Below the pieces are notes generated by a model that did not search any database, had not been told where the DNA came from, and saw only the letters and a list, made by a program, of their open reading frames with translations. A stretch of DNA of 48,606 nt from a virus, in IMG/VR virus record IMGVR_UViG_3300037041_000905, positions 1 to 48,606 of that record; one strand, given 5' to 3'. The position numbers were made by a program, and so were the translations under genes. Of this stretch, positions 6,783-46,655 are shown one piece after another (positions within the stretch are counted from its first letter, which is position 1; each line of letters begins with the position of its first letter).

Positions 6783-6829
6783 GGTGTCCTCCACCAAGAA
6801 TTGGAACCCACCCTTTTGAGTCCCAAAAC

Positions 6830-6858: not shown

Positions 6859-6870
6859 CTATCAGTTGAC
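6854..6870. promoter_or_regulatory. Inverted repeat GTCAACT-ATC-AGTTGAC, operator-like
   Basis: A perfect 7-bp dyad with a three-base centre overlaps the candidate -35 box of the leftward promoter, the position expected for a repressor or activator operator. No matching regulator gene is evident. Confidence 0.45.
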
Positions 6871-9317: not shown

Positions 9318-9751
9318 TGAAGAAGACAGCACTCCTGACGCTGCTCTGCGTCTTGGTCTTCCCAGTATGCGCGAGTGCCCAGTCCACCCGCATCTTCACG
9401 CAGTCGATGGTCAATGGCGCGCCAGCGACTATCGACATGGCCGTCGTGGACGTCTATGGGAATGTCCGCGTGCCGTCCCTTCTGACGATCAGCTGTGACA
9501 ACGCGATGAACACGACCATCACGCTCCCGGGCGCTGATGGGTATATCCCCGTTGTCACTGGAAGCGGCGTCAGGGATGTCGTGATCGACGGCGTAACCTA
9601 CAGCACGACTGGCGGCAATGTGTCCGTTGCGAGCGTCATCTGGTTGCCGATGGGCACGTTCACAATCTCCCCGAGATGCAAAACGGTGATTGCCACCTGC
9701 AAGAACGCGACACCGCACACCGTATGGCTCACGGCGGAGTACGAGCAGTGA
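9314..9751 (+). CDS. Secreted protein, paralogue 2
   Basis: The product begins MMKKTALLTLLCVLVF, a clear Sec signal peptide cut near residue 22 (CASAQ). The mature part is beta-rich with cysteines near ISCDN, SPRC and ATC. It shares its opening and ending patterns with the previous protein, which supports tandem duplication. The start is the first of two adjacent ATGs overlapping the previous stop. No family recognised beyond this pair. Confidence 0.72.
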   Translation: MMKKTALLTLLCVLVFPVCASAQSTRIFTQSMVNGAPATIDMAVVDVYGNVRVPSLLTISCDNAMNTTITLPGADGYIPVVTGSGVRDVVIDGVTYSTTGGNVSVASVIWLPMGTFTISPRCKTVIATCKNATPHTVWLTAEYEQ

Positions 9752-15661: not shown

Positions 15662-17314
15662 ATGAGTAATCCCGCGATTGGCCTTGGTGGCTCCACTGGA
15701 GTAGCGGCGTATGCCGCTGGCTACGGTGCGAACGTCCCCTCGGCGAACAACCCGAACGAGTTCTACGGCTACGGCACCGCCTTCATGAACCCGAACCAGT
15801 TCGTGCTGGACATCAGCGAGCGCATCCACCTGTTCGGTGCCGATGCCTCGCCGTTCTTCAGCTGGTCCTCGATGGTCCGCAAGTCCCCTGCGAAGGGCGT
15901 GGACTTCTCGTGGATGGAAGACGAACTGTTCACCCACCGCGACGTCAAGTGCCTCCTGGCTCGTTACTGCCCGACTGGGGCGACGAACGGCAACTGCGTC
16001 TACACCCTGAAGATCCAGCACGGCGGCGACTGGCAGGCGTTCGAGGCGGCTCCGCTGGCCGATGCGTACACGCAGTCGACCACGAACCTGTCGGCCAACC
16101 TGACGTCTCCGACGATCTGCCTGTCGATCAAGGCCAACAGCGCCGAGATCCTCGTCCTGCCTCTGGCCTACGGCTTGGCCGAGGGCCCGAAGACCCGGAC
16201 TTGGACGCCCAGCACTGGCACGGCCTTCACGATCAACAACGAGCTGATCCTCGCTGACAACTCGAACGGCACGATCACGGTCGGCACGAACGCGACCAAC
16301 GCCAGCAACCACTACCTGAAGCATGTCATGAGCCACCACGGCACGGGCTCGTACCCCGCGGCTGGCCTGACTCTGACGTCGACCATCCTCAACACGCTGT
16401 TCTCGGCTGGCGCTCCCGTGGCTGGTGCGTCTGACACCATCGTCTGCACGGTGCGCACCTACACCCCGAACGAAATCCATCAGGGCTTCGCTCAGGGCAG
16501 CGGCCTGCCGACCGAGAGCCGCAAGCGCTCGCGGACGTTCAAGAACTACGTCCAGATCTTCAAGACGCCGTACAGCATCGCCAACACCCTGCAGGCCGTG
16601 CAGATGTACGGCGGCAACGAGCTGGCGAAGCTGCGGTACAAGAAGGCGATCCAGCACAAGGTCGACATCGAGCGCGCGATCCTGTTCCAGGGTGGCGGGA
16701 ACATGGACAGTGCCACGGCTCCCAACTGGGGCTACGTCGGCGGCACGACCTCCGAGAACCCGATCACGCGGTTCAAGGGCCTCGGTGTCGGTGCGACGAG
16801 CATCGCCAACGCTGGCTTCATCTCGACCAAGAACGGTGGATGGGACAGCGGGTTCACGCTGGCGGCTGACGGTTCGGCCACGCAGGCGAACCTGAACGAC
16901 CTCGCTGGTCGCATCTTCGAGGACACCGTGGACACTCCCTCGTCGTCGAAGCTCGTCTTCGCGTCGAAGAAGTGGATGGGCATGCTCTCGCTGATGGCCC
17001 TGAAGCAGGACACCGCGAACTACCGCTGGGGCAACGTGGGCCAGAAGGACGGCCGTCTGGGCATGAAGATCCGCACGCTGGAGACTCCGTTCGGCGATCT
17101 CAACTTCGTGGACATGCCGCACTTCCGGGGCGAGTTCGAGAACTACGCTCTGGTCTGCGACATGAACAACATCGAGATCAAGCCGCTGCGTGACACCCAG
17201 CTGATCGCCAACTGCGGCGAGAAGACGGTCGACGGCCAGATCGACTACTACATCACGGAACTCGGGTTCGAGTGTCGCTTCGAGTCGACGCACGCGATCC
17301 TGAAGCTCACCTGA
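15662..17314 (+). CDS. Major capsid protein (HK97-type, DUF5309-like)
   Basis: The 550-residue product starts after an AAGGAG site. The N-terminus is glycine/alanine-rich. Segments NYVQIFKTPYSIANTLQAVQ, RYKKAIQHKVDIERAILFQ and TPFGDLNFVDMPHF follow the pattern of DUF5309-type capsid proteins, where a helix of the kind KKxxxxxxDIERA lies before the main beta-core. Its length and place right after the scaffold agree. A hairpin follows the gene, which may limit or balance downstream expression. Confidence 0.82.
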   Translation: MSNPAIGLGGSTGVAAYAAGYGANVPSANNPNEFYGYGTAFMNPNQFVLDISERIHLFGADASPFFSWSSMVRKSPAKGVDFSWMEDELFTHRDVKCLLARYCPTGATNGNCVYTLKIQHGGDWQAFEAAPLADAYTQSTTNLSANLTSPTICLSIKANSAEILVLPLAYGLAEGPKTRTWTPSTGTAFTINNELILADNSNGTITVGTNATNASNHYLKHVMSHHGTGSYPAAGLTLTSTILNTLFSAGAPVAGASDTIVCTVRTYTPNEIHQGFAQGSGLPTESRKRSRTFKNYVQIFKTPYSIANTLQAVQMYGGNELAKLRYKKAIQHKVDIERAILFQGGGNMDSATAPNWGYVGGTTSENPITRFKGLGVGATSIANAGFISTKNGGWDSGFTLAADGSATQANLNDLAGRIFEDTVDTPSSSKLVFASKKWMGMLSLMALKQDTANYRWGNVGQKDGRLGMKIRTLETPFGDLNFVDMPHFRGEFENYALVCDMNNIEIKPLRDTQLIANCGEKTVDGQIDYYITELGFECRFESTHAILKLT

Positions 17315-25340: not shown

Positions 25341-26921
25341 ATGAAGGGGATGTACAACACCAATGCTCTCGAAGGCTTTACCAACGCCGTAGAGGGCATT
25401 AGAGCTGACCAGCGCGCGCAGGACGAGAACCGTATGCGCATGCGTGCCCTTGACAGCCAGCTCGCCACCGAGAAGGCCGAGCGCGATCTGCTGCCCGCTC
25501 GTCTGGCCCTCGACTCGAAGAAGCTCGAGTATGAGATGACCATCGGGAAGATGGACATGCTCCTGAAGACCGCCAGCACGGTCGACGTCCTGCAGACCAA
25601 CTCCCTTGATCGCACGATCAAGACCGACCAGCATGGCGAGTGGAAGGACGTCACGCCGCTGCGCAAGGGCATGATGAACCTTGAATACCAGATGGCGTCA
25701 ATGAACGCCTTCGCTCGCACCGTGGAGATCGGCCACCAGTTCCGTCAGTGGGCGCAGCAGGACCTCTATGGCCCGCTGTACGCCATGGCCACCTTCCTGA
25801 CGTCCATCGCCCCGAACCTCGTCCAAGCGGCCAACGTCATCGAGAAGGGTGACAAGGAAGTCAAGTCGCGGATGGGCTTCGTCACCGAGCGTCTCGTCGA
25901 CAAGTCCAAGAAGGACAAGAACGGCGACTACCTTGAGTTCAATGGCGACAACCGCGGCGTCATCGAGTGGTCGAACATGGCCACTGGTCGCTCTGGCATG
26001 CGCAACCCTGACGATGCTGTCAGCGGACTCGCCTACTCCATCGCTCAGGATTACGGCGACCGATACAGGGTCGTGGACAAGAACGGCAAGGCCCAGTACC
26101 AGCCTCCTACGGATGGCGTCGACGCTGGTCAAGGGCTTCAGGGCGCTCGTGACAATCTGTACGCTCGGCACCTCATCGAATCCGTTCGCGGCCTCGACAA
26201 CGCCCTCCCTGGCGTTCAGGAGACCCAGCGGGCATACACTGAAACTGCTGCTGGCGTCGAGGCGACCATCGACGAGCTTGCCGCCACGGCCAAGGACCCG
26301 AAGCTGAAGCGGGAGATCATGAGCAAGATCGACCTGCTGCTCTACAACTCGCAGGAGAGCGCACAGGAAGAGCTGAAAAGTTACCTGATGGAGAAGGGCG
26401 GGACTGGGCTTGTCATCCAAGTGATGGGCAATGATTCCGTTGAGGGTCTTCGCCATCACGGGTATACTCTTTCTGGATTTGCGAGGATTCAGGACGGGAT
26501 TCCTGTCTTTGACAACGAGCAGTCCGACTGGAGAACTGGCAAGACGTTCGTCACCGCGCGGGCCAGCAAGATCTGGCCCAACGAGATGCTGTCGCCCGAC
26601 GACTTCAACTCCGTCCTCGCCGCCAAGGCCAATCGTGACGGCACGATGAAGCTGCTCGGCGAGACCGAGGACATGCTCGGGCTGGGAGCCAATGCCGCTG
26701 GGGATGTCTTCAGGCGCGCCATGACGACCGACCTGCTCAAGGGCATCGTCGAGTCTGGTGGCGGAACCGAAGACGGGACCATGCCACGCAACTCTTGGTC
26801 GATGATTAGGGAGCTTGGCGAGGAAACCAACAAGAGACTCGAGAACTACGGGCTCTCGATTGGTGCGATCGATTCCGTTACTGCCGCCGCTGGTTATGGC
26901 AGTGCGTACAGAGGCCAGTAG
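25341..26921 (+). CDS. Internal virion/ejection protein (526 aa)
   Basis: An N-terminal coiled coil (about residues 20-75, RMRMRALDSQLATEKAERD) is followed by a mixed, mostly helical body. It follows the pattern of ejection proteins grouped after the tail genes. RBS GGAAGGGATCACGG precedes the ATG. No catalytic motif is evident. It lies immediately upstream of the giant protein and is probably co-packaged with it; this is inferred from position. Confidence 0.62.
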   Translation: MKGMYNTNALEGFTNAVEGIRADQRAQDENRMRMRALDSQLATEKAERDLLPARLALDSKKLEYEMTIGKMDMLLKTASTVDVLQTNSLDRTIKTDQHGEWKDVTPLRKGMMNLEYQMASMNAFARTVEIGHQFRQWAQQDLYGPLYAMATFLTSIAPNLVQAANVIEKGDKEVKSRMGFVTERLVDKSKKDKNGDYLEFNGDNRGVIEWSNMATGRSGMRNPDDAVSGLAYSIAQDYGDRYRVVDKNGKAQYQPPTDGVDAGQGLQGARDNLYARHLIESVRGLDNALPGVQETQRAYTETAAGVEATIDELAATAKDPKLKREIMSKIDLLLYNSQESAQEELKSYLMEKGGTGLVIQVMGNDSVEGLRHHGYTLSGFARIQDGIPVFDNEQSDWRTGKTFVTARASKIWPNEMLSPDDFNSVLAAKANRDGTMKLLGETEDMLGLGANAAGDVFRRAMTTDLLKGIVESGGGTEDGTMPRNSWSMIRELGEETNKRLENYGLSIGAIDSVTAAAGYGSAYRGQ

Positions 26922-26936: not shown

Positions 26937-29900
26937 TTGAGCGACAAGAAAAACGAAAGCCCCACGGAGACGATCGATGCTGGCCTTCTGGCCCATCTCG
27001 TAAATAACAAGGGCTTTCGGTCTGAGACCTCGGCGGTCAACGTCTGGAACGGCTACAAGAAGAAGTACGGACCCGAGGCTTTCGCCTACATCGCGCGCGA
27101 CTTCGGGTACAGCCCGCAACAGACCATCGCCCCGCAGGCGGATGCTCAGGCCGCCTCCACGGGTCAGGAGGCAGCGGGTACTCCCTCCGCCCCTGCCTCC
27201 GCGCCCGTGACTCTGCCGCCATCCCTGCAGGCCGCTACTGGCCAGCCCGTCGAGGGGCCTCCGGGCGCTCCGGGCACGCAGGGAACTGTGCCACCCTTCG
27301 CAGCACCGCAGACCGACACCCAGCAGTTCTACGCCGCCAAGGCGCAGGCTGAGGCTGTCGCTAGTGCCGCCATCGGCAACACCACTGGGACGATCATCCC
27401 CGGGCAGTCTGGCGCTGTCAGCATCGTCCACCCGTCGACGGACGTTCCGTTCGGCAACCCGCTCAAGCGTGTCGCTGGCCTGTCTGGCCCCCGCAAGACG
27501 ATGATCGAGTCTGGTGTGCCGACGAGCATGGGCAACCCTGCTCCCGTCAAGATCAGTCCGCAGTTCGGTCTGCCGCCCAGCACCAGCACCGCGGCCAAGA
27601 CGCTTACCAACGATGAGTGGAAGAAGCTCCCGTTCAAGGAGCGGTGGAAGCACGCTGGCGACAACATGGCTGACATCCAGAACAGCGGTGTCGTCAGCAA
27701 CGCCGATGCTGTCGATGAGGCCACGCCTCAGATCGGCCGCGTCAGTGGGACCAACGTCGGCCTCGATGCTGCCCACTGGCGGCTGTTCAGGAAGCACGCG
27801 AAGAACGTGTGGGAGACGCATCCCACCACCGCTGCTGGCTGGGCTGACTCTGGCCAGACCTATGCGTGGCACGCCTTCAACACATGGTCCTTCGGCGCTC
27901 CTGAAGGTCTCCGCGGCCTCTACATGGCCCTCGGCGGGGACCCGTTCTGGACCCAGTCCGACAACCTGTTCTACACCGACTCGACTGCTTTCGGCGAAGC
28001 CATGGGCGCTCTGGGTGACGTCACTGGTATGCTGATGAGCCCGGGCAAGCAGGCGGCGAAGCTCGGTGGCGGCGTCCTCAAGGGCGCTGGTCGGGTCGTC
28101 GGCAAGGACATCGCTGGTGGCGTCGAGGCCGTCCTCTACTCGAAGGGCATCGGTAAGGTTACGCGGGGCGTCAACGCCGTCAACAACTGGAACCCTGTCG
28201 GCCAGATGATGCAGAGCGGTGAGGCTGCTGTCGGCAAGTTCCTCGTGTCCAAGGCGGTCGCCCCCTTCGGGGCTCACCTGATGACGACCGAGGCTGGCAA
28301 GTCGCTCGTCGCTGGTGTCGCCGAGATCATCGGCAAGAATCGCATGAGGAGCCTGCTTGGGAGCAGGTCCGCAGAGCAGGCCGTCGAGCAGGCCGCGTCG
28401 AAAGCCGCCAAGAATACCCTCGCATCCGAGTGGAGGGCCGTCCGCCACGATCCGCTGCGCAACAAGATCGAGAACGAACTGGTCAGCGATGCCGAACTCA
28501 CGGCCTTGACCACCTTCTCGGCCAACGCCCGCAAGGAACTGGGCAAGGTCCTCGGCAACGCCGATGATGCCACGATGCAGAAGCTGCTCGACAGCATGAC
28601 TGACGAGTTCGCCATCTACCTGAAGACCAACCCGACTGCGACTGGGCTGCTGAAGCACCCGTTCGGGTCTGGCCGTCTGGCGTCCAAGCTGCAGGCCAAC
28701 AAGTTCGTCGACATCACCAGCAGGGTGTTCGTCGATGGCGCACTCGAAGCTGTCGGATTCGGTGTCCAGCACCTCACTGCCAGTATCGGCCCGTACTTCG
28801 AGATCGTCGCCCAAGAGGCTTACGAGAAGGGTGACAAGCTCACGTTCATGGACTACGCCAAGAAGACTGGCGACCTGTGGGCCGACAAGAACGGCGTCAA
28901 GTTCGGCAAGGACTGGAACCCGAACAATCAGGGCAACGTCTACGACTCGATGACGATGGGCTTCGTGTTCGGCACCAAGGGCCTCGGCGCTGGGCACATC
29001 GGCAAGTTGCCGTGGGTCAGCGAGCGTGTGCCTTGGTTGAACACTGCCGATCGCAACTTCAGCGACCTCAAGCGCGGGCTGAACTCTGTCCGCGGCGTCG
29101 GGAAGATGGAGTTCAGGGACTACATCATGCAGCTTGGGTCTGACGGACACGCCGAGGTCCTGAACCGCATGGTCGGCGTCTTCAGGCGCGCGGGCATCAC
29201 TGTGAACCCCAACGCTGTCATGGCCGACGAGCTGGCTCGCCTGTTCAAGGTCGCTGAGGATACGCCCACTGGCCGTAAGGCGATCGAGAAGGCGATCAAG
29301 CTCATGCGTGGTGATGTCAAGAACATGACCGACAAGCAGCTCGCCATGTTCGCGGCCATCAGCAGGGCCAACGCAGAGCGGTTCCCAATCATCATGCGTG
29401 ATGGGCGGATGTACGACAACCGCATCGCCAAGCTCAACGAGCAGGACATTGGCAAGCTCTACGATGACGTCTGGGCTGACGATCTGGCCAACGAAGGTCG
29501 GCTGCTGGCTCGCAAGAACATCGAGGACACGATCGCCCACGAGAACAGCATCATCGAGCAGATGTACAAGAGCGAGTCGAGGGTCATGTTCCTCTCGGAT
29601 CTCGCCAAGTCGTCTGTCGTCGCTGGGGCCATCTTCCTTGAGACTGGCGGCGGCGAGATGCTCCGGGCCATGAACGACGAGAACTCTGGTCCCGTCGAGG
29701 TCGCCAACGTCATGAGTCACGCCATGTTCTCGTTCATGGCTGGCAGTCATCAGCGGTACAGGTCCTCGACGCCTGACATGCTGAAGTCCACCCTCGATGC
29801 CACGAAGATCGGCAAGGACCAGCCCGGGTGGCTGCAGAACCGCATGCGCCTGTCCGCCCTTCAGGCCCAGATGCACTACGGCGGGCAGGAAGTTCACCCG

Positions 29901-32900
29901 TTCATCGCCTACGTCCCGCCTCCGATGGACTACAAGAGCATCCACCTGATCGCCGCAACGGGATCGGTGAATGACTTCGTGGTGGACATCGCCAAGCGCG
30001 TTGCCGACTCCGTGAAGAATGGCAAGGGCTACCATGCCGTCAACAAGCTCGGGGACATCAGCGATCCTGCGAACATCTCGCCTGCTGGGCGCACGCCGCT
30101 GACGCATGACGAGCTGGATCAGGGCCTCGCTGTCCTCAAGGCGCTCACTGCCTCTGGCGTTCCACTGCCCGAAGCCTTCAACATGGCTGGCTACAAGCCG
30201 ACCGATGGTCAGGACTACATCGACGCCATCAACCATTCCGAGAACCGCGCGGAGTACCTTGGGCACATCACCCATGCCTTGCGCAACATGGCCATCGAGG
30301 GCAAGTACCTGAGCGACGGCGGGACGTTCAAGGCCGAACACTTCTACCGAATGACCCGCCTGTCTGCTCAGAAGAAGATCGGCGAGATCGCAAGCGCTGT
30401 CGACTACACGGCTACCCAGCTGGCCCGCCTGCAGTCTGGTGTCGTTGCTGGCCGCGACAACGTCTTGAGCCCCGTCACCTTCGAGAACAATCCCGAGTTG
30501 ACGGCCCAGATTCAGGACTTCGTGGACATGGCTGCGACCCTGCAGTCCCGCTACGAGATCTTCAAGGAGGTCAAGCCCGGGTCTGGCACCGTCAGCGTCA
30601 AGTCCCTCGGCGACAGCGTTGCCGCTGCCCACCAGATGGGCCGCAAGGCGCTCGAACTCCACCAGAAGCCGATCTCCACTGACGGCGGGGAGCTTCTCTC
30701 TGCCGCTGAGATGGCCGCTCTCAACATCATCGACGAGTTCCACAGGTCGCTTTCCGCGATCGGCGTGGACCCCAAGCTGAAGCTGGGAACCCCGGGCGGG
30801 GAACTGAAGAACTCCCTGTACGAGGCCGTTGAGATGACTGGCCGCTTCATCGCTGGCGAGCTGTTCCACTTCCGCACCCCGGGTGGCGTGGTCATCTCGG
30901 GCACCAACGGCAAGCGGTTGACTGTCGAGGGCCTCATCGCCGCGGCCGAAGCTGCTGGCCTGTTCTCCAACGAGCGGATGGAGGGCGTCAAGGGCAAGCG
31001 TATCCTGCGCCCCATCAGCAGGGACCTGCTCAAGGAACTGGCGAAGGAAGACCCCCAGAAAGCCGTTCGGTTGCTCTGGCTGCACGACACGCTCAAGAGC
31101 ATGACCGATCTCGTCTACACCCCGACCGACGAGGCCGCTGCCAGTCTCACTGGCATGGTCATCAACGTCGAGGGCAACATGGGCGCTGGTGCGTTGCTGG
31201 AGACCAGCGACCTGTCCAAGCTGTTCCGTGCGCAGAAGGGTGGAGCCAACCGCCCGGGTGACGCCTACAACCCGATCTACCATCGCCGTGGATTCTGGGG
31301 CGCGCTTGAAGACGCTGGCATCGTGATCAACTCTCGGGAGCATGCGTTCAACACGCTGGCTGACCTTGAGGGTCTCAAGAACATGACCCTCTCCGAGTCC
31401 CAGCGCATGACCGCTGCCGCCATCAAGATCCACAAGCTCTACATCAAGGATGCTGGTGGCAACCGCGTCATCGCTCCCGACGTCCTGCTTGGGAAGCTCC
31501 TCGGCATCGAGGACATCAATGGCCCCGAGGGTGTGTCCATCGCCGCACAGGCACTGCGCAACGCCAACGGCGACCTGATGTCCGCTGCGCCCAGCCCAGA
31601 CCTCGACACCCCAGTCTTTGGGCCTGCAGAGAAGTCGTGGGAGTTCAGGATGCAGCTCCTCATGCGCGAGAAACTGGCGGCTCGCCTTGGTGGCAGCATC
31701 AAGAACCTCGACGGGACCGAGATGACGTTCGAGCAGCAGAAGGCCCTGCTGTTCAAGACCACCTTCGGCGTTGACCTCGACGCCTACATCAAGATGGTCG
31801 ACGGGTTGAACGACGCTGGCGTCTACGACGGCTGGACGACCGACACTGGCAAGGTGGACGGCGTGCCCCGCGTCATCGACACCAAGCTGTACAGCGACAT
31901 GGGCCATATGCCCCTGCTGCAGGAGGCACTCGCTCCTCTGGTTGGCATCAGTGGTCAGCGCCGCGCGGAGATGGTCGACAACATGACCAAGGTCCTGCGT
32001 GGGTACAGCGTCGATCAGGGCCGCACCAGCCACCAAACTGTCGAGCAGCTGGTCAGGTACATCTCGTCCCTCGGCAATGCTGGCGACCGAACCTCGATGA
32101 TGCGGCTGCGCTACCTCACTGAGGGCGTGGCCAAGATCGTTGTCGAGAAGGATGGCCAGTCGATCTTCACGATCGACACCAAGGACATGAGCCAGGAAGC
32201 CATGAGCAAGATGCTCGACCGCTACGAAGCGCTCGAACTCGGCCGTGGCACCAGCGTCGACATCATCACCGACTACCAGCGCATGCTCACCAAGCAGAGC
32301 GAGGACATCGTCGGCGTGTCGTTCTTGGCCAAGCCCGAGAAGAGCAAGGGCGCTACGATCACGCACCTCTTCAAGGAGATGCGTCTGGGCTCCACCTTCA
32401 ATGACGCCCATACTGAACGATTCCGTGAAGTGGCGGCGCAGCTCGTCGAGGAGTTCAAGGCCAACCCGCCCGAGTCCTCTGGGGACACGGAGCCGTTCGT
32501 CGATGAACTGATGCGTAGGTTCAAGGCGACGTTCCGCCAGATCGGCCAAGAGTCGATGGGCAACTCGGTTGTTCAAGGACCTGTGACGAAGGAAGAATCC
32601 GAAAGGGGGATGACGCATCCAGCCAGTATTGGTGTTGCCCCCCATGCTGTCGAGGTCGAGCTGGGCAAGCTGAGCAGGGCCGACATGATCGGGATCTTCG
32701 ATCAGGTTGCTGACGCCGAGGTTGTCCTGCACCTGACGGCGAGCGATGCCGCAGCCTTCGACATGGCTGGCGTCACCCTTCCCGAGAAGGGCGCTCCTGC
32801 GGCTGGTGACAGCCCGGGCGAGACCAACGCTGGCATGATGAAGGCCCCCGCTCCCGTTGGTGCCAGCCGCGGCCAGTTCTCCGTGACGAGGAAGCTGCGC

Positions 32901-35900
32901 AAGGCTGACATCGTTCGCCAGATCCTCGACCAGCTCGGCAGTGACCGATCGATCGAGCTGGACATGCACGACGACAAGACCAACACCAGCCTCGCCTTCA
33001 ACAGGGGCCGTCTTGGTCGGCTGAACGACATCCTGTTCCTGCATGGTCTGGCCAAGCCGAGTGAGGTCTCGAAGCCCAACGCCATCGATGAGACGCCCGA
33101 CAAGAACACGAAGGCACTCAAGCTGGCTGGGCGCTACGGCCACGAGGGGGACAACACCCCGATCGTTCTGGTCCCGTTCGGCGACAGGAAGCTGCTGGCG
33201 ATTCAGGTCCCCAAGGATCGGGCCGCCATGCTGACGATGCTCAAGACCACGAAGGCCGCCTTCGACGGCACCAGCATCGCCTTCTCAAGGGCCAAGGGCG
33301 ACTTCACCAAGCTCTACAAGATGCTCGTCGACGAAGCGACTGGCGAGCTGCGCACCGAGATCACCACCAAGAATGGCAAGGTCGTCCAGTTCGAGAGCAT
33401 GGGCGATCTCATCAAGGCTGGAGTGGTCAGCCACAAGGACCTCTACAACGCCTTCGCCACCGTCATCCGCGCCAACGTGCATGGCACTGGCATCAGGGAG
33501 GACTCGAACAAGTCCAAAACCCACGCCATGGACGAGGCTCTGGATGTCGGCTCCAACAAGCGGTACACCCAGCTGGGTAGCGACTCCTACCGCAAGATCA
33601 GCGACCTGACGTTCTCCATGGCTGTGAACGAGGCCGTCCGTGCTGGCCACACCAGCGAGGCAGAACTCGTCTCCCGTGGGTTCGTCAAGCAGGCTGACGG
33701 CACTTGGAAAATCCGCGTCCAGCTGGTCGCCGAGAACAAGAACAGGGAGCGAGGCGGCGTCAAGGAGATGGACGGCAACATCCCTGTGGCCCGTGGCGCA
33801 ATGGATGTCCTCGCCATCACTGGCGGCTTTGACCCCCAGACCACCCGCGATTTCCGCAAGAATATGCAGTGGGCTGGCTGGAAGGGCTTCATCTTCGGCT
33901 CTCAGGGTGACGGGTTTAACTTCCTGACCAAGTCCTTCATGACCTCGATGGACAACTCGCAGGAGATGCTGGCCCTCCATGCGAACGTGGCCATGTTCGT
34001 GCCCATGTCGTCGATCAAGCTGGGCAAGCCCGCGCGGGGAGCCATGTACTCCCACGCTGACGGCCCGATCGACTTCACCGAGGCTGGACACAGGCTTGCT
34101 CGAGGGCAGAAGGTCGAGCTGATCGCTGGAGAAGAGAACATCATCGAGATCAGCCCGAGTGATCTCAAGTTCCAGGCCATGCATGACCCCACAAAGCTGA
34201 CCGCTACGATCACGGCTCAGCTGACTCAGGGCATGTCCCATGAAGCCATCAAGGCGTTCCTTGATGACGAGGCCATGTTCCCTGCAGCCGACATCGAGGG
34301 CTTCACCTCGCAGGTCTTCGACCACTCGACGATGGGGCAGGCTGCGGCCCGCGCCTTCTACGAGAAGGAAGACAGCGTTGACAACAGCTACTCGCCGAAC
34401 GACTACGGCATGGGTGCGATGTCACTTCTGGACGTCACCCTCATGGGTAGCCGCGGCGGTACTGCGACCCCGATGTTCCAAGGGCAGATCCGTCAGCGCG
34501 TGATGAAGATGGCCAAGGAGCGGCTGTTCAAGGGCATGAGCATGCACGGTGGCTCCGCTGCCATGTCGCCCGATGCCTCCGGGTCGCTGAAGGCCACCGA
34601 GATCATCCTCGGACCGCAGGCTCGCAACGCCCTGCTCAACCTGAAGCACACCTACCTTGGCGTCGAGCGCACCAGACATCTCAACATGGTGCTGGTCAAC
34701 GGCAAGTGGGTTGTCGATGGCGACGGCGTCGAGTACACCACTGCCCATGCCGACCAGTACCAGCAGGGCACGTTCAGTCACCGTCTGCGCGCAGAGGTCA
34801 AGGACAAGGCTGGCAAGGTCATCGGGAAGATCGGCAAGGCGTGGAACTTCAACCAGCCTTCCGAGGGACTGCCTTCTGACTCCGTGGCCGAGGACCGCAA
34901 GACCACTTGGGTTGACACCAACCTCAACGAACGTGCGTCCATCGATGGCAACGGACACATCCGCGGCTTCCTCGCCCAGATCGTGTCCGAGATCTACGCT
35001 GGCGGAGTCAAGAAGGGCGCACACACAAGGCACCTTGCCCCCATCTACCAGTTGTTCGATCGCTCGAAGGGGCACATCGCTGACGATACCTTCTTCCCCG
35101 CTGCCAAGATCGTCAACGACATGTTCGTCGACGTCATCACGGCCAAGAGCCCCGACGAGGCCAAGAAGGCTGTTCAGAAGGCTGTCGACAGCCTCAGGAA
35201 GGGTGACGAGAACGGCCCGATTGTGATCCACCCCGAAGGCGATGCCATCGTCAGCATGATGCAGGCCGACATGGGTGACGCCATCGACCGCCTGTTCCTG
35301 AACGTCGAGGCCCGGGCCAACGGTCTGGATATCGACTTCGGTCTCGGCACCAACGCTGGCAAGGGGAACTCCGTTGGCGAGATGACCAACGGCGACATGT
35401 TCAACCTGCTCAACAGGGTTCTCGGACGCAGGGAAGCTGCCGACGACCACTGGGGAACTGGCTACGACCACACCAAGCGGTACGTCACCGACGCTGGCGA
35501 GGACCTCTACAAGGGCGCTGGCCTGACTCCTGTGAAGTACGCCATCGCTGGGGCGCTGCAGCGCAGCCCCTCGGCGAAGGTCAACGACACGGTGCTGTTC
35601 CACCAGCTGGGCTTCATGGAGGACGCCCAAGGCGGACTGGCCATCGTCAACCGCCCCGACGCCGTCGACGCGATGGAAGCTGACTACGACTACGACACCT
35701 TCAAGTTTATGTTCGCCTTGCCGAAGGAGACCATCGGCGACGTTGCCCGACTGCGCAACATCATCGGTCCTCTGGGTAGCCAGAAGGAGGACACGTCGAA
35801 GGAGCCGTACACCTACCTCGTGGATGGCCCGACGATGGGTGAGAGCAACCAGTACCTAGACTACATCAAGGGACAGCATGTTGCTGCCGCCCTCAAGGGA

Positions 35901-38201
35901 CAGATCATCAGCGGCAAGGCTGTCGCTGAGAAGATGATCGCCGATGGCCGCGGCTTCACTTACACGGTGGGCAAGAAGACGTACCGCATCAGCCCCAAGT
36001 GGGATCTCGACACGATGCAGGCTGAAGGCATGGCCCCCATGCTGGAGATCTACTCGATCGTGCAGAAGGTCCTCGACACTCCGGGCGCGATGCTGCCGAG
36101 CAACTACGAGCTGAAGGACGCCAAGGGCAAGGGCACTGGCAAGAAGGTCGACCTCAACAACTTCGATGTTGACAAGGAGATCTTCAATAGGCTCTACAAG
36201 AAGGAACTCATCCTCGTCAACGGAACCGTGCCGAAGGGCGTCAAGGATGTCCAGCCCGAGGACATCATGCTCAGCGACGATGTTGACATGCGCATCCTCA
36301 GGTCCGTGAGGACGCTGATCAGCAGGGCTGGATCGGTCATGCGTGACGAGCAGGACGGCGACACCGCCCTGTCCCGCAACGTGGACGACATGGTGACGAT
36401 CGCCCGGGAGTACAGCGAGATCTTCGGGGACCGCCTCGAAGGAAATCCCGTTGACGACTCGGCGTCGAAGCTCAGGAGCTACGTCCTGCGCACCAACCGT
36501 GACATGCCCGACAACATCAGGCAGATCATCGAGGGCAACAAGGAAGAGCCCGGGAGCGGGCTGCAGTTCCACACCACGAACAAGGAGACGCCGAACGGGT
36601 ACATCGAGCGCGTCAACGCTTGGGTTGCCCGCATCGGTGACGCCATGAACGGCGAGTACAAGGGCGATCCCAACACCACTGGCGACGGCAAGATGATCCG
36701 CGAGCTTGCCACCAAGGCGTCTGGTGACAGGGCGCTCATCAGCGCTCTCGAAACCATGGAGCGCATCCCTGCCATCCGCGCGGAGATCCACCGCATCGAG
36801 ACCGAGATGAAGAACCTCGGCGGCATTGGGGTGCATCTCTCTGGGCAGCTGGACGACCTCAAGACGCAGCTGGATGACGCCCTCATGGCCCGCACCCATC
36901 TGGGTACTGGCGTTGTGACCACCAACCTCAAGACGGCAGAAGGGCGCACGCTCAACCGCCGCCTTGTCGATGGCACGATCATGGGCTACTCCATCAAGCT
37001 GACCGCTCTGGGGATCGACGACACGCTTGACCCGCGGCTCAGTGCCATGGCGGACATGAGCGCCCGTGACATCATCAAGGCCCGCAACCAGATGTGGGGC
37101 ATCGCCTCTGGCGAGGTCGCTGCCTCCAACAAGCGCGTGAAGCCGACGATGATTCAGGACGCACTGAACGCCATCGTCGAGAACTACATGCACCAGTTCA
37201 CCAGCGGCCAGGAAAAGGTCGACATGTTCGACGAGCTGGCCATTCGGTTGCTGACGCCCAAGGCGCAGGCCCTGTACGTCACTGGTGGCCAGAAGTTCTT
37301 CTCCTACGACAAGATGAATCAGGACATCGTGCAGGCGCTGATGAAGTACGACACCGTCAGGACGCAGGCGTTGCTGCAGAAGATCAACCGCAACAGCCTC
37401 CTGATGTCGGACGTCTTCAGCGGCGACCCCGTTGTTGGCTCGCTGGCCATGCGCGACCAGATCGCAGCCATCAGCAGCTTCGACGGCCGTATGGGTGAGC
37501 GCAAGACGATGCTCAGGAACATCTTCAAGGACCTTGATGTGGACAACCCCATCGAGGAGATGATGAAGGAGAACCTCGTCACGCGGACGGACTTCGAGTT
37601 CGGGTACAATCCGCTGTTCGATGGCATCATGCCCTCGGGCACGAAGATCAAGGGTGTGGACCGCATGCTGCTCGGCTCCATCCGCAACCAAGGGGCCCTT
37701 GAGAACTACCGCGGCAGGATCGTGGACATCACCGCATCGGTGGACAGGGCATCGGTCCTCGACGTCCCGGGCATCCGAACCATGCTCGGCCAGAACTGGG
37801 ACTCAGCCATCCTCAAGGCCAGTGGCGCTCGGCTTGCCAAGGCGCAGCGGCCCTTCTACCAGAAGCTCTACGCGGACGCTGTTGAAGATGTCCAGACTCA
37901 GGTGTACAATGAGCGTGTCGGACGCCAGAACGCCACGGGCGGCACTGGCTACATCACGCCGCCCAACATGATCTTCCTGCAGGGTGCCGACCTGACCAAG
38001 GCCATCAATCAGGCGAACACCAACTTCGGGACGGTTATGAACAAGGTTATGACTGCGTCGAGGGACATGACCTCGGAGAGCGCATCCAAGGCCATCTTCC
38101 GTGACTCGAGACTGGACGTTCGCGGACTGTCCAACAACGGCATCGAATCGGCTCAGGCCGAACGCGAGCGCAACTGCATCCCAGCGTCTGGAGGAAACTA
38201 A
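26937..38201 (+). CDS. Giant virion protein (3,754 aa) with candidate two-barrel RNA polymerase signature
   Basis: One uninterrupted frame of 3,754 codons, about 23 percent of the window, starts at a TTG with AGGGGAGAAGA upstream. The N-terminus is followed by a Pro/Ala/Gln-rich linker (about residues 60-120); most of the rest is helical. Near residues 2875-2925 VLFHQLGF, GGLAIVNRP and MEADYDYDTFKFMFALP resemble, in order, the beta-prime catalytic region (LHRLGI, GKAI, NADFDGD, HLP); D2916, D2918 and D2920 would be the metal-binding triad. Upstream, GDGFNFLT (D2325), SSIKLGK (K2361, K2364) and LKFQ (Q2413) could belong to a first barrel. The rest fits an ejected internal protein. Polymerase identity is a hypothesis. 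Confidence 0.7.
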   Translation: MSDKKNESPTETIDAGLLAHLVNNKGFRSETSAVNVWNGYKKKYGPEAFAYIARDFGYSPQQTIAPQADAQAASTGQEAAGTPSAPASAPVTLPPSLQAATGQPVEGPPGAPGTQGTVPPFAAPQTDTQQFYAAKAQAEAVASAAIGNTTGTIIPGQSGAVSIVHPSTDVPFGNPLKRVAGLSGPRKTMIESGVPTSMGNPAPVKISPQFGLPPSTSTAAKTLTNDEWKKLPFKERWKHAGDNMADIQNSGVVSNADAVDEATPQIGRVSGTNVGLDAAHWRLFRKHAKNVWETHPTTAAGWADSGQTYAWHAFNTWSFGAPEGLRGLYMALGGDPFWTQSDNLFYTDSTAFGEAMGALGDVTGMLMSPGKQAAKLGGGVLKGAGRVVGKDIAGGVEAVLYSKGIGKVTRGVNAVNNWNPVGQMMQSGEAAVGKFLVSKAVAPFGAHLMTTEAGKSLVAGVAEIIGKNRMRSLLGSRSAEQAVEQAASKAAKNTLASEWRAVRHDPLRNKIENELVSDAELTALTTFSANARKELGKVLGNADDATMQKLLDSMTDEFAIYLKTNPTATGLLKHPFGSGRLASKLQANKFVDITSRVFVDGALEAVGFGVQHLTASIGPYFEIVAQEAYEKGDKLTFMDYAKKTGDLWADKNGVKFGKDWNPNNQGNVYDSMTMGFVFGTKGLGAGHIGKLPWVSERVPWLNTADRNFSDLKRGLNSVRGVGKMEFRDYIMQLGSDGHAEVLNRMVGVFRRAGITVNPNAVMADELARLFKVAEDTPTGRKAIEKAIKLMRGDVKNMTDKQLAMFAAISRANAERFPIIMRDGRMYDNRIAKLNEQDIGKLYDDVWADDLANEGRLLARKNIEDTIAHENSIIEQMYKSESRVMFLSDLAKSSVVAGAIFLETGGGEMLRAMNDENSGPVEVANVMSHAMFSFMAGSHQRYRSSTPDMLKSTLDATKIGKDQPGWLQNRMRLSALQAQMHYGGQEVHPFIAYVPPPMDYKSIHLIAATGSVNDFVVDIAKRVADSVKNGKGYHAVNKLGDISDPANISPAGRTPLTHDELDQGLAVLKALTASGVPLPEAFNMAGYKPTDGQDYIDAINHSENRAEYLGHITHALRNMAIEGKYLSDGGTFKAEHFYRMTRLSAQKKIGEIASAVDYTATQLARLQSGVVAGRDNVLSPVTFENNPELTAQIQDFVDMAATLQSRYEIFKEVKPGSGTVSVKSLGDSVAAAHQMGRKALELHQKPISTDGGELLSAAEMAALNIIDEFHRSLSAIGVDPKLKLGTPGGELKNSLYEAVEMTGRFIAGELFHFRTPGGVVISGTNGKRLTVEGLIAAAEAAGLFSNERMEGVKGKRILRPISRDLLKELAKEDPQKAVRLLWLHDTLKSMTDLVYTPTDEAAASLTGMVINVEGNMGAGALLETSDLSKLFRAQKGGANRPGDAYNPIYHRRGFWGALEDAGIVINSREHAFNTLADLEGLKNMTLSESQRMTAAAIKIHKLYIKDAGGNRVIAPDVLLGKLLGIEDINGPEGVSIAAQALRNANGDLMSAAPSPDLDTPVFGPAEKSWEFRMQLLMREKLAARLGGSIKNLDGTEMTFEQQKALLFKTTFGVDLDAYIKMVDGLNDAGVYDGWTTDTGKVDGVPRVIDTKLYSDMGHMPLLQEALAPLVGISGQRRAEMVDNMTKVLRGYSVDQGRTSHQTVEQLVRYISSLGNAGDRTSMMRLRYLTEGVAKIVVEKDGQSIFTIDTKDMSQEAMSKMLDRYEALELGRGTSVDIITDYQRMLTKQSEDIVGVSFLAKPEKSKGATITHLFKEMRLGSTFNDAHTERFREVAAQLVEEFKANPPESSGDTEPFVDELMRRFKATFRQIGQESMGNSVVQGPVTKEESERGMTHPASIGVAPHAVEVELGKLSRADMIGIFDQVADAEVVLHLTASDAAAFDMAGVTLPEKGAPAAGDSPGETNAGMMKAPAPVGASRGQFSVTRKLRKADIVRQILDQLGSDRSIELDMHDDKTNTSLAFNRGRLGRLNDILFLHGLAKPSEVSKPNAIDETPDKNTKALKLAGRYGHEGDNTPIVLVPFGDRKLLAIQVPKDRAAMLTMLKTTKAAFDGTSIAFSRAKGDFTKLYKMLVDEATGELRTEITTKNGKVVQFESMGDLIKAGVVSHKDLYNAFATVIRANVHGTGIREDSNKSKTHAMDEALDVGSNKRYTQLGSDSYRKISDLTFSMAVNEAVRAGHTSEAELVSRGFVKQADGTWKIRVQLVAENKNRERGGVKEMDGNIPVARGAMDVLAITGGFDPQTTRDFRKNMQWAGWKGFIFGSQGDGFNFLTKSFMTSMDNSQEMLALHANVAMFVPMSSIKLGKPARGAMYSHADGPIDFTEAGHRLARGQKVELIAGEENIIEISPSDLKFQAMHDPTKLTATITAQLTQGMSHEAIKAFLDDEAMFPAADIEGFTSQVFDHSTMGQAAARAFYEKEDSVDNSYSPNDYGMGAMSLLDVTLMGSRGGTATPMFQGQIRQRVMKMAKERLFKGMSMHGGSAAMSPDASGSLKATEIILGPQARNALLNLKHTYLGVERTRHLNMVLVNGKWVVDGDGVEYTTAHADQYQQGTFSHRLRAEVKDKAGKVIGKIGKAWNFNQPSEGLPSDSVAEDRKTTWVDTNLNERASIDGNGHIRGFLAQIVSEIYAGGVKKGAHTRHLAPIYQLFDRSKGHIADDTFFPAAKIVNDMFVDVITAKSPDEAKKAVQKAVDSLRKGDENGPIVIHPEGDAIVSMMQADMGDAIDRLFLNVEARANGLDIDFGLGTNAGKGNSVGEMTNGDMFNLLNRVLGRREAADDHWGTGYDHTKRYVTDAGEDLYKGAGLTPVKYAIAGALQRSPSAKVNDTVLFHQLGFMEDAQGGLAIVNRPDAVDAMEADYDYDTFKFMFALPKETIGDVARLRNIIGPLGSQKEDTSKEPYTYLVDGPTMGESNQYLDYIKGQHVAAALKGQIISGKAVAEKMIADGRGFTYTVGKKTYRISPKWDLDTMQAEGMAPMLEIYSIVQKVLDTPGAMLPSNYELKDAKGKGTGKKVDLNNFDVDKEIFNRLYKKELILVNGTVPKGVKDVQPEDIMLSDDVDMRILRSVRTLISRAGSVMRDEQDGDTALSRNVDDMVTIAREYSEIFGDRLEGNPVDDSASKLRSYVLRTNRDMPDNIRQIIEGNKEEPGSGLQFHTTNKETPNGYIERVNAWVARIGDAMNGEYKGDPNTTGDGKMIRELATKASGDRALISALETMERIPAIRAEIHRIETEMKNLGGIGVHLSGQLDDLKTQLDDALMARTHLGTGVVTTNLKTAEGRTLNRRLVDGTIMGYSIKLTALGIDDTLDPRLSAMADMSARDIIKARNQMWGIASGEVAASNKRVKPTMIQDALNAIVENYMHQFTSGQEKVDMFDELAIRLLTPKAQALYVTGGQKFFSYDKMNQDIVQALMKYDTVRTQALLQKINRNSLLMSDVFSGDPVVGSLAMRDQIAAISSFDGRMGERKTMLRNIFKDLDVDNPIEEMMKENLVTRTDFEFGYNPLFDGIMPSGTKIKGVDRMLLGSIRNQGALENYRGRIVDITASVDRASVLDVPGIRTMLGQNWDSAILKASGARLAKAQRPFYQKLYADAVEDVQTQVYNERVGRQNATGGTGYITPPNMIFLQGADLTKAINQANTNFGTVMNKVMTASRDMTSESASKAIFRDSRLDVRGLSNNGIESAQAERERNCIPASGGN

Positions 38202-41200
38202 TGCCGATCTGTGGAACCAGCAGACTGCCGAAGATCGGCGCACTGGACAGAGACCTCGCGCTGAAGAAGGCTCGGATGGATCGCCTCTTCGACTCCATCG
38301 AGGAAGAGGGCGCGAAGGGCGAGATGAAGCGGCTGGCCCTCGGGCTGATGAGCGGGGAATCCACGGACAACCCTGCCGCCCTGAGCAAGGCCGTCGAGTA
38401 CTTCATCTACGGAGCCATCGGCCGCAAGCCGCCCGAGAACAGGTTCATCCTAGATGACGTCGAGATCGCCCGACTCGAAGCCATCCTGCACACTGCCAGC
38501 AGCGATGCCAGTAGGGCCATGAAGATGGGCAACAAGCTCGTCAAGGAGTACGGGTCGGTCGAGGCCATCCCCCGCGAGAAGCTCAAGACCTTGAGCAAGT
38601 TCTGGACAGCTCGTGGTCCCTTCACGATGGAGCTGGCCCACACGAGACTGCTCCCGGGCGGCAGCAACCTCTTCGGCGATCTGGTTATGATGGAATCGGA
38701 ACACAAGGCCCGCGTCAAAAGCTCGGAGACCTCCATCAGCCACATCGTTGACGGGATCAAGGACATCACCTCGGAGCATTTCGGGCGGAACGTGAAGCGC
38801 ATGGCGGTCATCGACCAGGAGCTTCGGCTGCTGGGTGATCAGTACCGCATGACGCAAGAGGCCGTCGACGCTGGTGATCCGATCGACCCGGGCAAGCTGT
38901 CGAAGATCCAGAACAAGATCGACATCGCAAGGCAGAAGCGTGCCCGCATGCTGTCGGACGACGACAACACCAACTCCGTCGCTCTGGTCAACCGAGCCAT
39001 CATCGACATCATCGAGGCCAAGACCCCCGAGGAGCGCAACAAAAAGGCCGAGGAGTACAACCGCCTCCATGGTCTGGACGAGAACAAGCTCAAGGGCATG
39101 ATCCTGCCTGTCGAAACCATGCTGCACGACTACGTCGCTGTCGGCGAACAGTCCGTGCGCTACCTGCGTCGGTTGATAGAGACGGAGATGAACCGTGTTG
39201 GCGGATCTCCCGCCGAACTGGAGCAGGCGCTGGCCCTCATCAAGCCCATGGGCGTGATCGAGAAGGGCTACTTCCCCGTGCAGTCACTGCTTGATGCGCG
39301 GCCGATCGAGAAGGTCTCGCTGCTCAAGAACATGATCGACTCCATCCAATTCCACGGCGCGACCAAGCCGCAGGATGTCCTGTCCATCATCAGTTCGATG
39401 AGCGGACACATGGAGACCCGCACTGGTTCCGTGGACAAGGAGAACCGAGACCTCAACGTGGCCTCCGTGCTACAGCACTACACCAGCACCATGCTCCACA
39501 CCAACTACGTCATCAAGTCGCAGCACGCCTTCGGCGGCTACGTCAGTAGCCTGTACAAGATCGGCATGGAGTCTGGAGAGGTGGACGCCCAAGCATACGC
39601 CATCGCCGCGGATCGCATGCTGGACTTCACCCGTCGTCGGATGGTCGGCACGCAGAGCCATGGCGTGATGCACGAACTCAGCACGCACATGCTGTCCTAC
39701 ACCGTCCTGACGAAGCTGGGCATCTTCCGTCCCGCTGGCATGGTGAGAAACCTTGCCGAAGGCGGGACGATGATCCTGACCAAGGTCGGGATGGCCAACA
39801 TGCGCAGGGCGAGCAAGCTGTGGAAGGAGGCCCAGACCACGCCTGTCTCCATGGGAGAAGAGGGCAACTCTGGGATCTCCTACCGATCCATCGTCGGCGA
39901 CATCATGGCCGAACACAAGCTGGACCTCGGCCACGACAGCCATGTCGGCGAAGGCCCGCTGGGCACGCTGCTGACTCCCAAGATCAAGGCACTCATCGGA
40001 GACCCCGAACTGGCCGAGACCTACCTGACCGTCGAGCGCATCCGCTCCGAGACCCATGTCCATGTCCTCAAGGCCATCGACAGGTACATCCAAGAGCAGG
40101 CTGGCAAGGTCAAGCTGAGCCGCGACCAGATGATGTCGGCATGGTCCTCGGTGGAAACCCTGCTTCGACAGAAGGCGTTCCGCACTGGGGCCATCCTCGC
40201 CATGGACAGGACGGCCAAGATCTACGGCGACATGTTCAACAACCCAGCCTATCCCATCCCGAAGCGGCTGATCGACAAGTTCGATCTGGATGGCAGTGTT
40301 CTGGACGGCAAGGCTGAGAACTCAAGCAAGCGCTCGGAGCAGTTGCTCAAGCTGATGCGCGCGGAAGGAACCCGTGGTGGACTGAGCCTGCTCTACCGTT
40401 CGCAGGGCCAGTACAGCGTCCTTGCCCGTCACCCGATCGAGGACTTCTCTCCGTTCGGCCTGCACATGGGCAAGATGATGCACCTGTTCCGCCAGTACCC
40501 TGACAGCTGGAACACCCAGTTCGCTCTCGGTGCCCGGGACATGTACCATGCGGCCCACGCCTCGGGAGCCGTCGAGGGCTGGATGAAGACCACCCGCACG
40601 GAGAAGAGCGAGGGCTACCAGTGGTGGATGGGAGGCCAGCCGATCATGGCGGCAATGATTGCCATGATGGCCCAGCTGGGAGTCGGGGCGTACCTGCAGA
40701 ACAACAAGTTCGGTGGGATCTTCGGCCAGGGTGTGCGCATCGCTGGCATGTACCGCGGTGACATACCCGCCGTGGCCTCCTTCTTTGACGGCATCACCAG
40801 CAGGGACGAGAAGACCAAGAAGTGGACGAACGGTGGCAGGTCGCTGCAGTCCATCTTCACTGGCCCCATGGCCGCTCCCGTGGAGTGGGTCGTGAACATG
40901 GCAGCGATCTCGGCTGGGTTCGAGCGGGGGGACCTGCCACTCGGGACTAACACCGCGGCTCAGGTGCTGGGCTGGAACCCCGACAAGGAAGTCCAGCGGT
41001 TGCCCGAGAACTACAACCCGACCGATTTCGGTGACATTGCCAAGGCCACTGGCCAGCACTGGCTCAATGGCGTCTCGGTGGGGTCGGACATCAACGCCCT
41101 CAGGGATGAGTACAACAAGGCTGCGAGCAGAAAGGGCATGGCCGTCCTCAAGGCGTTCCTGCTCAGGTCGGTCGGGGCGCAGCCCACTTACAGCCCGCAG

Positions 41201-41224
41201 GCGGCGAGCGAGAACAAGCCGTAG
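38201..41224 (+). CDS. Large internal/ejection protein (1,007 aa)
   Basis: The ATG overlaps the giant gene stop (TAATG) and has a GGAGG site. The product begins MPICGTSRLPK and is helical and charged through most of its length. Near residues 812-832 (QPIMAAMIAMMAQLGVGAYL) it has one strongly hydrophobic segment that could insert in a membrane during DNA entry. It is the last late gene, before the convergent terminators. No enzymatic motif recognised. Confidence 0.65.
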   Translation: MPICGTSRLPKIGALDRDLALKKARMDRLFDSIEEEGAKGEMKRLALGLMSGESTDNPAALSKAVEYFIYGAIGRKPPENRFILDDVEIARLEAILHTASSDASRAMKMGNKLVKEYGSVEAIPREKLKTLSKFWTARGPFTMELAHTRLLPGGSNLFGDLVMMESEHKARVKSSETSISHIVDGIKDITSEHFGRNVKRMAVIDQELRLLGDQYRMTQEAVDAGDPIDPGKLSKIQNKIDIARQKRARMLSDDDNTNSVALVNRAIIDIIEAKTPEERNKKAEEYNRLHGLDENKLKGMILPVETMLHDYVAVGEQSVRYLRRLIETEMNRVGGSPAELEQALALIKPMGVIEKGYFPVQSLLDARPIEKVSLLKNMIDSIQFHGATKPQDVLSIISSMSGHMETRTGSVDKENRDLNVASVLQHYTSTMLHTNYVIKSQHAFGGYVSSLYKIGMESGEVDAQAYAIAADRMLDFTRRRMVGTQSHGVMHELSTHMLSYTVLTKLGIFRPAGMVRNLAEGGTMILTKVGMANMRRASKLWKEAQTTPVSMGEEGNSGISYRSIVGDIMAEHKLDLGHDSHVGEGPLGTLLTPKIKALIGDPELAETYLTVERIRSETHVHVLKAIDRYIQEQAGKVKLSRDQMMSAWSSVETLLRQKAFRTGAILAMDRTAKIYGDMFNNPAYPIPKRLIDKFDLDGSVLDGKAENSSKRSEQLLKLMRAEGTRGGLSLLYRSQGQYSVLARHPIEDFSPFGLHMGKMMHLFRQYPDSWNTQFALGARDMYHAAHASGAVEGWMKTTRTEKSEGYQWWMGGQPIMAAMIAMMAQLGVGAYLQNNKFGGIFGQGVRIAGMYRGDIPAVASFFDGITSRDEKTKKWTNGGRSLQSIFTGPMAAPVEWVVNMAAISAGFERGDLPLGTNTAAQVLGWNPDKEVQRLPENYNPTDFGDIAKATGQHWLNGVSVGSDINALRDEYNKAASRKGMAVLKAFLLRSVGAQPTYSPQAASENKP

Positions 41225-45290: not shown

Positions 45291-45772
45291 GGCTTGATCT
45301 TTTCAGCATAGTTCTTGTGGAAGGTGTCACGATCGATGTTGAACTGCCACTCCCATCGAGGCATCCGAATCTGGTAGCTCCCATGCCCTTGCTGGAAGAT
45401 GTACCGCTCCTCGAACTCCTCGGGGTAGGCCCACTCCGCAGTGCCATGCCCGAAGTAGACGCCGATGTTGGCCAGCAGCCAAGCGAACGCCCGGGTATGG
45501 TCGATCCAGTCGAGGCCGTAGTTGGCGATCATGATGGAGTCGGGGTACATATGCACGACAAGGCCCCAGCGGCCAAGAGCCGCCTGCAGCGTGTCGTCCT
45601 TGCCATTGTCCAAGATCAAGCCGTCGTAACGCCACTGCTCGTCACGCCCGTCATACTCGGCATACAGGCGGTTGATGTCGTTGTCCACGCGCATCTCGTT
45701 GAGCGTTGCAAGCAGCTCCTCTGCCTTGCGCTGCCCGATGACGATGGCGCTAAATCGAAACGACTTCCTCAA
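45287..45772 (-). CDS. Hypothetical protein (161 aa), Trp-rich
   Basis: The frame opens at a TTG (45772) inside the end of the sigma gene without a well-spaced ribosome site, so the start is uncertain; downstream ATG near residue 27 is the alternative. The protein is rich in Trp, Tyr and His (WGLVVHMYPDSIMIANYGLD, then HGSYQIRMPRWEWQFNID). No family recognised. Confidence 0.62.
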   Translation of the reverse strand: MRKSFRFSAIVIGQRKAEELLATLNEMRVDNDINRLYAEYDGRDEQWRYDGLILDNGKDDTLQAALGRWGLVVHMYPDSIMIANYGLDWIDHTRAFAWLLANIGVYFGHGTAEWAYPEEFEERYIFQQGHGSYQIRMPRWEWQFNIDRDTFHKNYAEKIKP

Positions 45773-46655
45773 ACTCCACCCCCTTGAAGCGTCTGCGTGT
45801 GCGGATGATCACCCTGTCGATGACCTTCCTGATCAGGTATGGCGAGGTGCCTCGCTCATCGCTGATCTCCTTCGAGTTCTTGTCCTTGTAGTACATCTCC
45901 ATGATGATGTCGCGCTCCTCGTCACTGCAGCTGTCGAGGATGGCCTTCACGACGTTCTTGTTGTTGTAGTGCTTGGCCTCGACCTCTTGCTCAGGGTGAG
46001 TGACAAGACACGGGTTGAGGTCACGCTCCATCTTGTTCAACAGCGTGGACTCCTTGCCAGACAGGCCGATGCTCGGACCATCGAGACTAACGGGAGGGCA
46101 GACATGGTTGTACGAAGCCTGCACCACGGCCTTCGATACGCCAGTGCCCTCCCTGATCTCCTGCTGGGAAGGGAATCTATGATGCTTGTCTTGGAATCCT
46201 TCAGTAAACCTGCTGATCTTCAGGAATCCAGAGGTCGAGTACTTCGGACTGGCCACGATATCATAGCCCAGGGACGCACGTTGCAGTGCTGACAGGATAT
46301 AGAAGACCCCATAGGTAATGAATCTGTACCCATACTCCTTGTCGTAGTTCCGAGCTGCCGTGATTGCCCCGATGTAGGCATCGTTCACCAAGTCGGTGAC
46401 TGGCACGTTCCGCCACACGGCGAACTTCTTGGCCATGGCAATGATGAACCTGATGTTATGAAGCACCAGCTCGTGAACAGCATCCTCGTCCCCACCTTGG
46501 ATGCGATCCGCCAACGCGAACTCTTCCTGCAGTGTCAGAGGTGCATACTCAGCAGCGCTCTTGGTGTCGTTGATGAAGTCATCATACGCACGGCCCTTCA
46601 GGTCCCGATGCACTTCAATGTCGGACACCATACGGAGGGTTCTTGGCCTTCCCAT
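45750..46655 (-). CDS. Sigma-70-family RNA polymerase sigma factor
   Basis: The 301-residue protein has region 1.2 (TLQEEFALADRIQGGDEDAV, residues 41-60), region 2.1/2.2 (VLHNIRFIIAMAKKFA... then DLVNDAYIGAITAARNYD), region 2.3/2.4 (RFITYGVFYILSALQRA, 111-127), region 3 and region 4 with a helix-turn-helix (KEISDERGTSPYLIRKVIDR). It should bind host core RNA polymerase and redirect it to phage promoters. Region 2.4 lacks the W-W pair usual in this family, so promoter recognition is probably altered. The start overlaps the previous stop (TGATG). Confidence 0.9.
   Translation of the reverse strand: MGRPRTLRMVSDIEVHRDLKGRAYDDFINDTKSAAEYAPLTLQEEFALADRIQGGDEDAVHELVLHNIRFIIAMAKKFAVWRNVPVTDLVNDAYIGAITAARNYDKEYGYRFITYGVFYILSALQRASLGYDIVASPKYSTSGFLKISRFTEGFQDKHHRFPSQQEIREGTGVSKAVVQASYNHVCPPVSLDGPSIGLSGKESTLLNKMERDLNPCLVTHPEQEVEAKHYNNKNVVKAILDSCSDEERDIIMEMYYKDKNSKEISDERGTSPYLIRKVIDRVIIRTRRRFKGVEFEEVVSI

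Follow-up and report, generated by a model that had tools for sequence, protein, structure and literature searches.

Two-barrel RNA polymerases (RNAPs) packaged in the virion have been demonstrated for crAss-like phages, Thermus phage P23-45 and phiKZ-like jumbo phages. In crAss-like phages, the packaged RNAP transcribes the early genes (PMC7886860), and gp96 of P23-45 was discovered through a search for the DxDxD motif in virion proteins (PMC10770324). Here we describe an environmental phage contig of 48,606 bases (the window, that is, the whole stretch of DNA analysed; it may be incomplete), in which a giant late protein bears a faint but specific two-barrel active-site signature, so that the phage, although smaller than and unrelated to crAss-like phages and P23-45, probably delivers a transcription enzyme of its own to the host cell, as they do. 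Judging by sequence, this protein likely holds a two-barrel RNAP core within a single chain, albeit a very divergent one.

The rightward late operon of the window includes the genes for terminase (phrog_38 match, 4e-86), P22-type portal protein (12792..14897, + strand; Pfam P22_portal, 2.3e-73; phrog_156), SU10-type major capsid protein (15662..17314, +; Pfam SU10_MCP, 6.5e-35) and SU10-type adaptor, followed by the giant gene. The latter (26937..38201, +) encodes 3,754 amino acids, with the candidate RNAP core in the C-terminal half, and is supported by its translation, by its start site, a TTG codon with the SD-like sequence AAGGGGAG just ahead, and by a 3,771-aa homologue. Its upstream neighbour in the operon (25341..26921, +; 526 aa) shows partial similarity to its counterpart in the homologous contig. 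The downstream neighbour (38201..41224, +; 1,007 aa), the ATG of which overlaps the stop codon of the giant gene, is 27% identical to its counterpart, with the gene order kept, and probably is a virion or ejection protein. A PKD-domain protein is encoded upstream of the terminase gene (9676-10485, +).

The leftward genes include those for a DnaB helicase and a phage sigma-70-like factor of 301 aa (45750..46655, −; Pfam Sigma70_r2; phrog_351, 5e-27; NCBIfam sigma models), in agreement with the preliminary description, according to which a sigma factor is encoded together with the giant protein. Sigma region 2 found no match in the homologous contig, which is possibly incomplete. A Peptidase M15 domain protein (184-555, −; 9e-21), a probable endolysin, also belongs to the leftward block, away from the late operon. 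Between this block and the rightward structural operon, positions 6801-7000 are AT-rich (43% GC versus 60% GC in the genome), contain the inverted repeat GTCAACTGATAGTTGAC and represent a candidate control region; upstream of the leftward genes, no convincing shared early-promoter motif was found.

None of the library and tblastn searches names the giant protein an RNAP: there was no match to the whole protein in Pfam or PHROGs, to positions 33684-36443 of its gene in NCBIfam, to the protein among PDB sequences or, by tblastn, in INPHARED. The sole homologue found, of 3,771 aa, is encoded at the equivalent place in contig IMGVR_UViG_3300025115_000022 (43.9 kb), to which a terminase scan of viral contigs led and where the late genes follow the same order as in the window; the two giants are 29-33% identical (E 2.5e-285). 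Scans of viral contigs with the terminase, portal, capsid and giant proteins and with DNA patterns for DYDxDTFK and [AG]D[YF]DxDTFK, as well as scans of genome contigs, detected no other copies of the giant protein, and also yielded a close 10.9-kb fragment without the giant gene. Another contig with a terminase match (48.1 kb) is from a phage that encodes a tape-measure-like protein and no related giant, and its D.D.D matches lie outside an RNAP-like context.

The DYDYD motif lies where the preliminary description placed it (D2916/D2918/D2920 in the 26937-38201 reading frame), and residues 2874-2931 read LQRSPSAKVNDTVLFHQLGFMEDAQGGLAIVNRPDAVDAMEADYDYDTFKFMFALPKE. We delineate a candidate DPBB-A catalytic block, residues 2875-2931 (35559..35729, +; QRSPSAKVND...GGLAIVN...EADYDYDTFKFMFALP), from the profile match, a regular expression and conservation, with the three aspartates as the putative metal-binding triad. 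Conservation of these aspartates in the homologue was a check set beforehand, and all three are identical, the motif being DYDFD in that protein. The absence of the central glycine, which had been considered not disqualifying, is indeed normal, given that the triads of crAss RNAPs (DFDID, DFDVD or DYDID) lack it as well. The proposed match to the beta-prime segments is corrected in one respect: the shared anchor is R-x-P (RSPSAKVND versus RAPTLHR), whereas HQLGF is not equivalent to LHRLGI, being about 10 residues off. The distance from this arginine to the first aspartate is 40 in the giant (R2876-S-P2878), 39 in gp66 of the crAss-like phage phi14:2 and 38 in gp96, a better fit than to E. coli beta-prime, where the spacing is 35 in the segment that is also included in the multi-family sets below.

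For the other barrel, SSIKLGK (residues 2358-2364, with K2361 and K2364) and DLKFQ (2409-2413, with K2411 and Q2413) are present as described previously, and both fall into a candidate DPBB-B (beta-like) block, residues 2348-2424 (33978..34208, +; PMSSIKLG...SDLKFQ..HDP), which is the second local match in the profile comparison below and is kept in the homologue. K2361 and Q2413 from the earlier proposal are retained in the homologue and aligned with the crAss lysine and glutamine, but K2364 is replaced by threonine and was discarded as a second catalytic lysine. A GG[ST] motif at residues 2538-2540 (34548..34556, +), with the GG kept in both giants, was matched by eye to GGS in gp66 and SGRS in beta-prime and tentatively marks the first strand region of DPBB-A; from there to R-x-P, the giant has about 340 residues compared to about 86 in gp66. 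A candidate bridge helix (residues 2972-3002, QYLDYIKGQHVAAALKGQIISGKAVAEKMIA; 35850..35942, +) is placed only by analogy; it lies within the conserved segment 2941-3000 and is a long helix in both low-confidence AlphaFold models. Where crAss RNAPs have VDxAKDP, downstream of their bridge helix, the giant has LDTPG (3046-3050), with the aspartate retained and the lysine absent.

Conservation and profile queries on the giant protein are based on two sequences, which share a mean identity of 0.29 across all 3,754 residues. Among 60-residue segments of the entire protein, 2864-2923 is conserved best (0.567 identity); 2941-3000, with the candidate bridge helix, ranks third, and 2356-2415, with the K...Q block, ranks fifth. 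Identical in both giants are R2876, P2878, N2883, D2884, D2916/D2918/D2920, K2923, P2929, K2361, K2411 and Q2413. Two further stretches, residues 1441-1500 and 1609-1668 (31257-31940 of the window), come close to the catalytic block in conservation, with identities of 0.48 and 0.55.

The two-row alignment of the giants (residues 2250-3169) was compared with a profile of crAss RNAPs (phi14:2 gp66 and ten related RNAPs, n=11), with P23-45 gp96, P23-45 gp64 and YonO as further references. The invariant residues of the crAss family are K1065, Q1100, R1322-x-P1324 and D1361/1363/1365 (gp66 numbering), of which K1065 and Q1100 appear to sit in DPBB-B, given their invariance and position. With hhalign, exactly two local matches to the crAss profile were obtained, collinear with each other: R-x-P...DxDxD (score 26.6) and SxxKxG...Q (19.6), with K2361 and Q2413 aligned to K1065 and Q1100. 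The two-barrel polymerase-like context suggested previously is supported by this unguided profile comparison, which singles out the blocks with DYDYD and SSIKLG...KFQ and orders them correctly. The pairwise P values of 0.042 and 0.28 are weak single-profile scores. Among 312 column shuffles of the query, two reach 26.6, and none covers DPBB-B, so that none covers both blocks; ten control alignments, made for the same phage pair from their remaining proteins or from different regions of the giants, scored at most 19.7, off target. For comparison, the proven virion RNAP P23-45 gp96 scores 30.7 against the crAss profile, at the same template place as the DPBB-A match of the giant.

A multi-family DPBB-A profile of 15 sequences scores 27.6, whereas none of 180 shuffles exceeds 20.4. 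Four non-crAss families alone, with a Lactococcus protein also left out, give a marginal 18.9, reached by 5 of 180 shuffles; with the Lactococcus protein, the score is 26.9 against a shuffle maximum of 19.5 (n=300), a value that is biased because this protein was fetched by the DTFK pattern. In the ranking among background ORFs, the homologue comes first and the window giant fifth, those between being loci fetched for DYDxDTFK. In about 345,000 background residues, crAss loci excluded, the expression R.P.{30,46}D[FYLN]D.D, derived from known RNAPs, hits P23-45 gp96, the two giants and nothing else; shuffling the window giant produces it in 21 of 3,000 cases. The match to the gp66 family is at the level of motifs, with no significant hit to the giant by tblastn, HMMER or pairwise hhalign; the best hmmsearch match of the crAss profile (residues 2083-2178, E 0.013) is off the motif and, the method being insensitive, was dismissed as noise. 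The Lactococcus protein, by-catch of the DTFK pattern, is itself a two-barrel RNAP-like single polypeptide (NZ_BLLH01000011.1 of Lactococcus insecticola, an 89-kb contig; encoded on the − strand, at least 2,162 aa long), with the beta-type GDK..DYHGNKG and NRAPDLQ...NADFDGDTFKVIYP.

In both phages, the giant protein carries these motifs in the same conserved order and specifically matches two-barrel RNAPs, from which we infer that the motif regions fold as double-psi barrels. AlphaFold predictions of the core region, from the 920-aa and 291-aa two-row alignments, reached a mean pLDDT of about 35 in both runs. This lack of a confident fold and the lack of a family match would also suit a large protein without enzymatic activity that is ejected or lies inside the virion, with a role like that of T7 gp16 or DarB, in which DYDYD would be an unrelated conserved acidic loop, perhaps a metal site of structural role. 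Other phages with a P22-type portal have giants at this place, namely, a DarB-like protein of 4,914 aa in PEp14 and a protein of 2,706 aa in Vibrio phage 1.183.O, and the motif is absent from both, as it is from the giant of ctwe8250, also a P22-portal phage. Such a protein, however, leaves unexplained the R-x-P at RNAP spacing, the K...Q block at crAss-invariant positions and in the right order, and the specificity compared to the shuffles and the ten control pairs, and we consider this explanation unlikely.

The reading that we prefer, and hold to be probable, is that residues from about 2300 to about 3100 form a divergent two-barrel RNAP core, with virion delivery and early transcription as its inferred parts, the latter two suggested by the place of the gene in the late operon, by synteny with the homologous contig and by precedent. 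A beta-like barrel (K2361, Q2413) would precede a beta-prime-like barrel (R2876-x-P2878, D2916/D2918/D2920), in which the three aspartates would bind Mg, followed by the candidate bridge helix. Packaged as an ejection protein, the giant would enter the cell together with the DNA and make early RNA from phage promoters without the host RNAP, which the phage sigma factor may later redirect to later promoters.

A different assignment, which we find quite improbable, is that the giant is a two-barrel homologue other than a virion-delivered RNAP, that is, a later-acting, non-virion RNAP or a PolD-like or primase-like barrel polymerase. The two-barrel core is common to PolD (PMC4996933) as well, the scan of window proteins recognised a DnaB helicase but no DNA polymerase, and P23-45 also owns a non-virion two-barrel RNAP. 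Against this assignment, the giant gene sits in the late structural operon, in the place of giant ejection proteins, its sequence, among the two-barrel RNAPs compared, has its affinities with the crAss-type virion enzymes, and DxDxD with R-x-P is the RNAP form. Least probable is a decayed, catalytically dead RNAP relic retained for DNA ejection: the second lysine, K2364, differs in the homologue, and a bulky residue (Y/F) occupies the fourth position of the triad motif, but no part of the giant is better conserved than the catalytic segment, and crAss RNAPs have no glycine either.

We do not file the pair of giants in the gp66 family, since VDxAKDP and a significant sequence match are both absent; they would instead represent a lineage of their own among small phages with a P22-type portal. 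We lean towards an additional lineage of giant virion RNAPs, two-barrel and single-chain, with DYDYD or DYDFD, in phages with genomes below 50 kb, P22-type portal and SU10-type capsid, outside Crassvirales and Oshimavirus, that would combine packaged early transcription with later sigma-driven takeover of the host RNAP. To our knowledge, no smaller genome has been seen to do so, if this holds. A separate occurrence in an ejection-type giant of a phage of about 49 kb would suggest repeated origin or spread of such enzymes by fusion to cell-entering proteins; many unannotated giant late proteins might then conceal polymerases, and a very divergent family would be added for tracing the minimal two-barrel core. 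D2916/D2918/D2920 offer a specific triad for mutation.

Among named systems, crAss gp66 (phi14:2 and homologues, Crassvirales) is likewise a single chain with the K...Q block preceding R-x-P(38-40)DxDxD and a glycine-less triad, and its large gene also lies among the virion-protein genes of a short-tailed phage. Unlike gp66, with which it has no significant pairwise similarity, the giant differs from crAss residues within the R-x-P...DxDxD block, where it reads NDTV, GGLA and DTFK, replaces VDxAKDP by LDTPG and, by implication, has a large insertion before R-x-P; in contrast to crAss phages, the window phage has a capsid of the SU10 type, and its genome is about half as large. Like the candidate core of the giant, the RNAP core of P23-45 gp96 lies within a giant late protein, with recognisable similarity confined to the DxDxD region, but it is N-terminal in the tape measure protein of a long-tailed phage with an 84-kb genome, and its motif is R-x-P(38)DFDGD. 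The virion RNAP of Schitoviridae (N4; about 3,500 aa) would be analogous as a giant podophage virion protein able to start early transcription; it is a T7-type enzyme, and no T7-type RNAP family match was detected in the giant in Pfam or PHROGs. SP-beta YonO, which also has RSP ahead of the triad, P23-45 gp64 nvRNAP, QDE-1 and the cellular RdRPs share the two-barrel active-site logic, but are not encoded as late virion genes in giants and have DNDGD, DYDGD or DxDGD triads. Giant virion two-barrel RNAPs are an already known kind, and what would be new here is an isolated lineage in a small P22-portal, SU10-capsid phage with a sigma factor.
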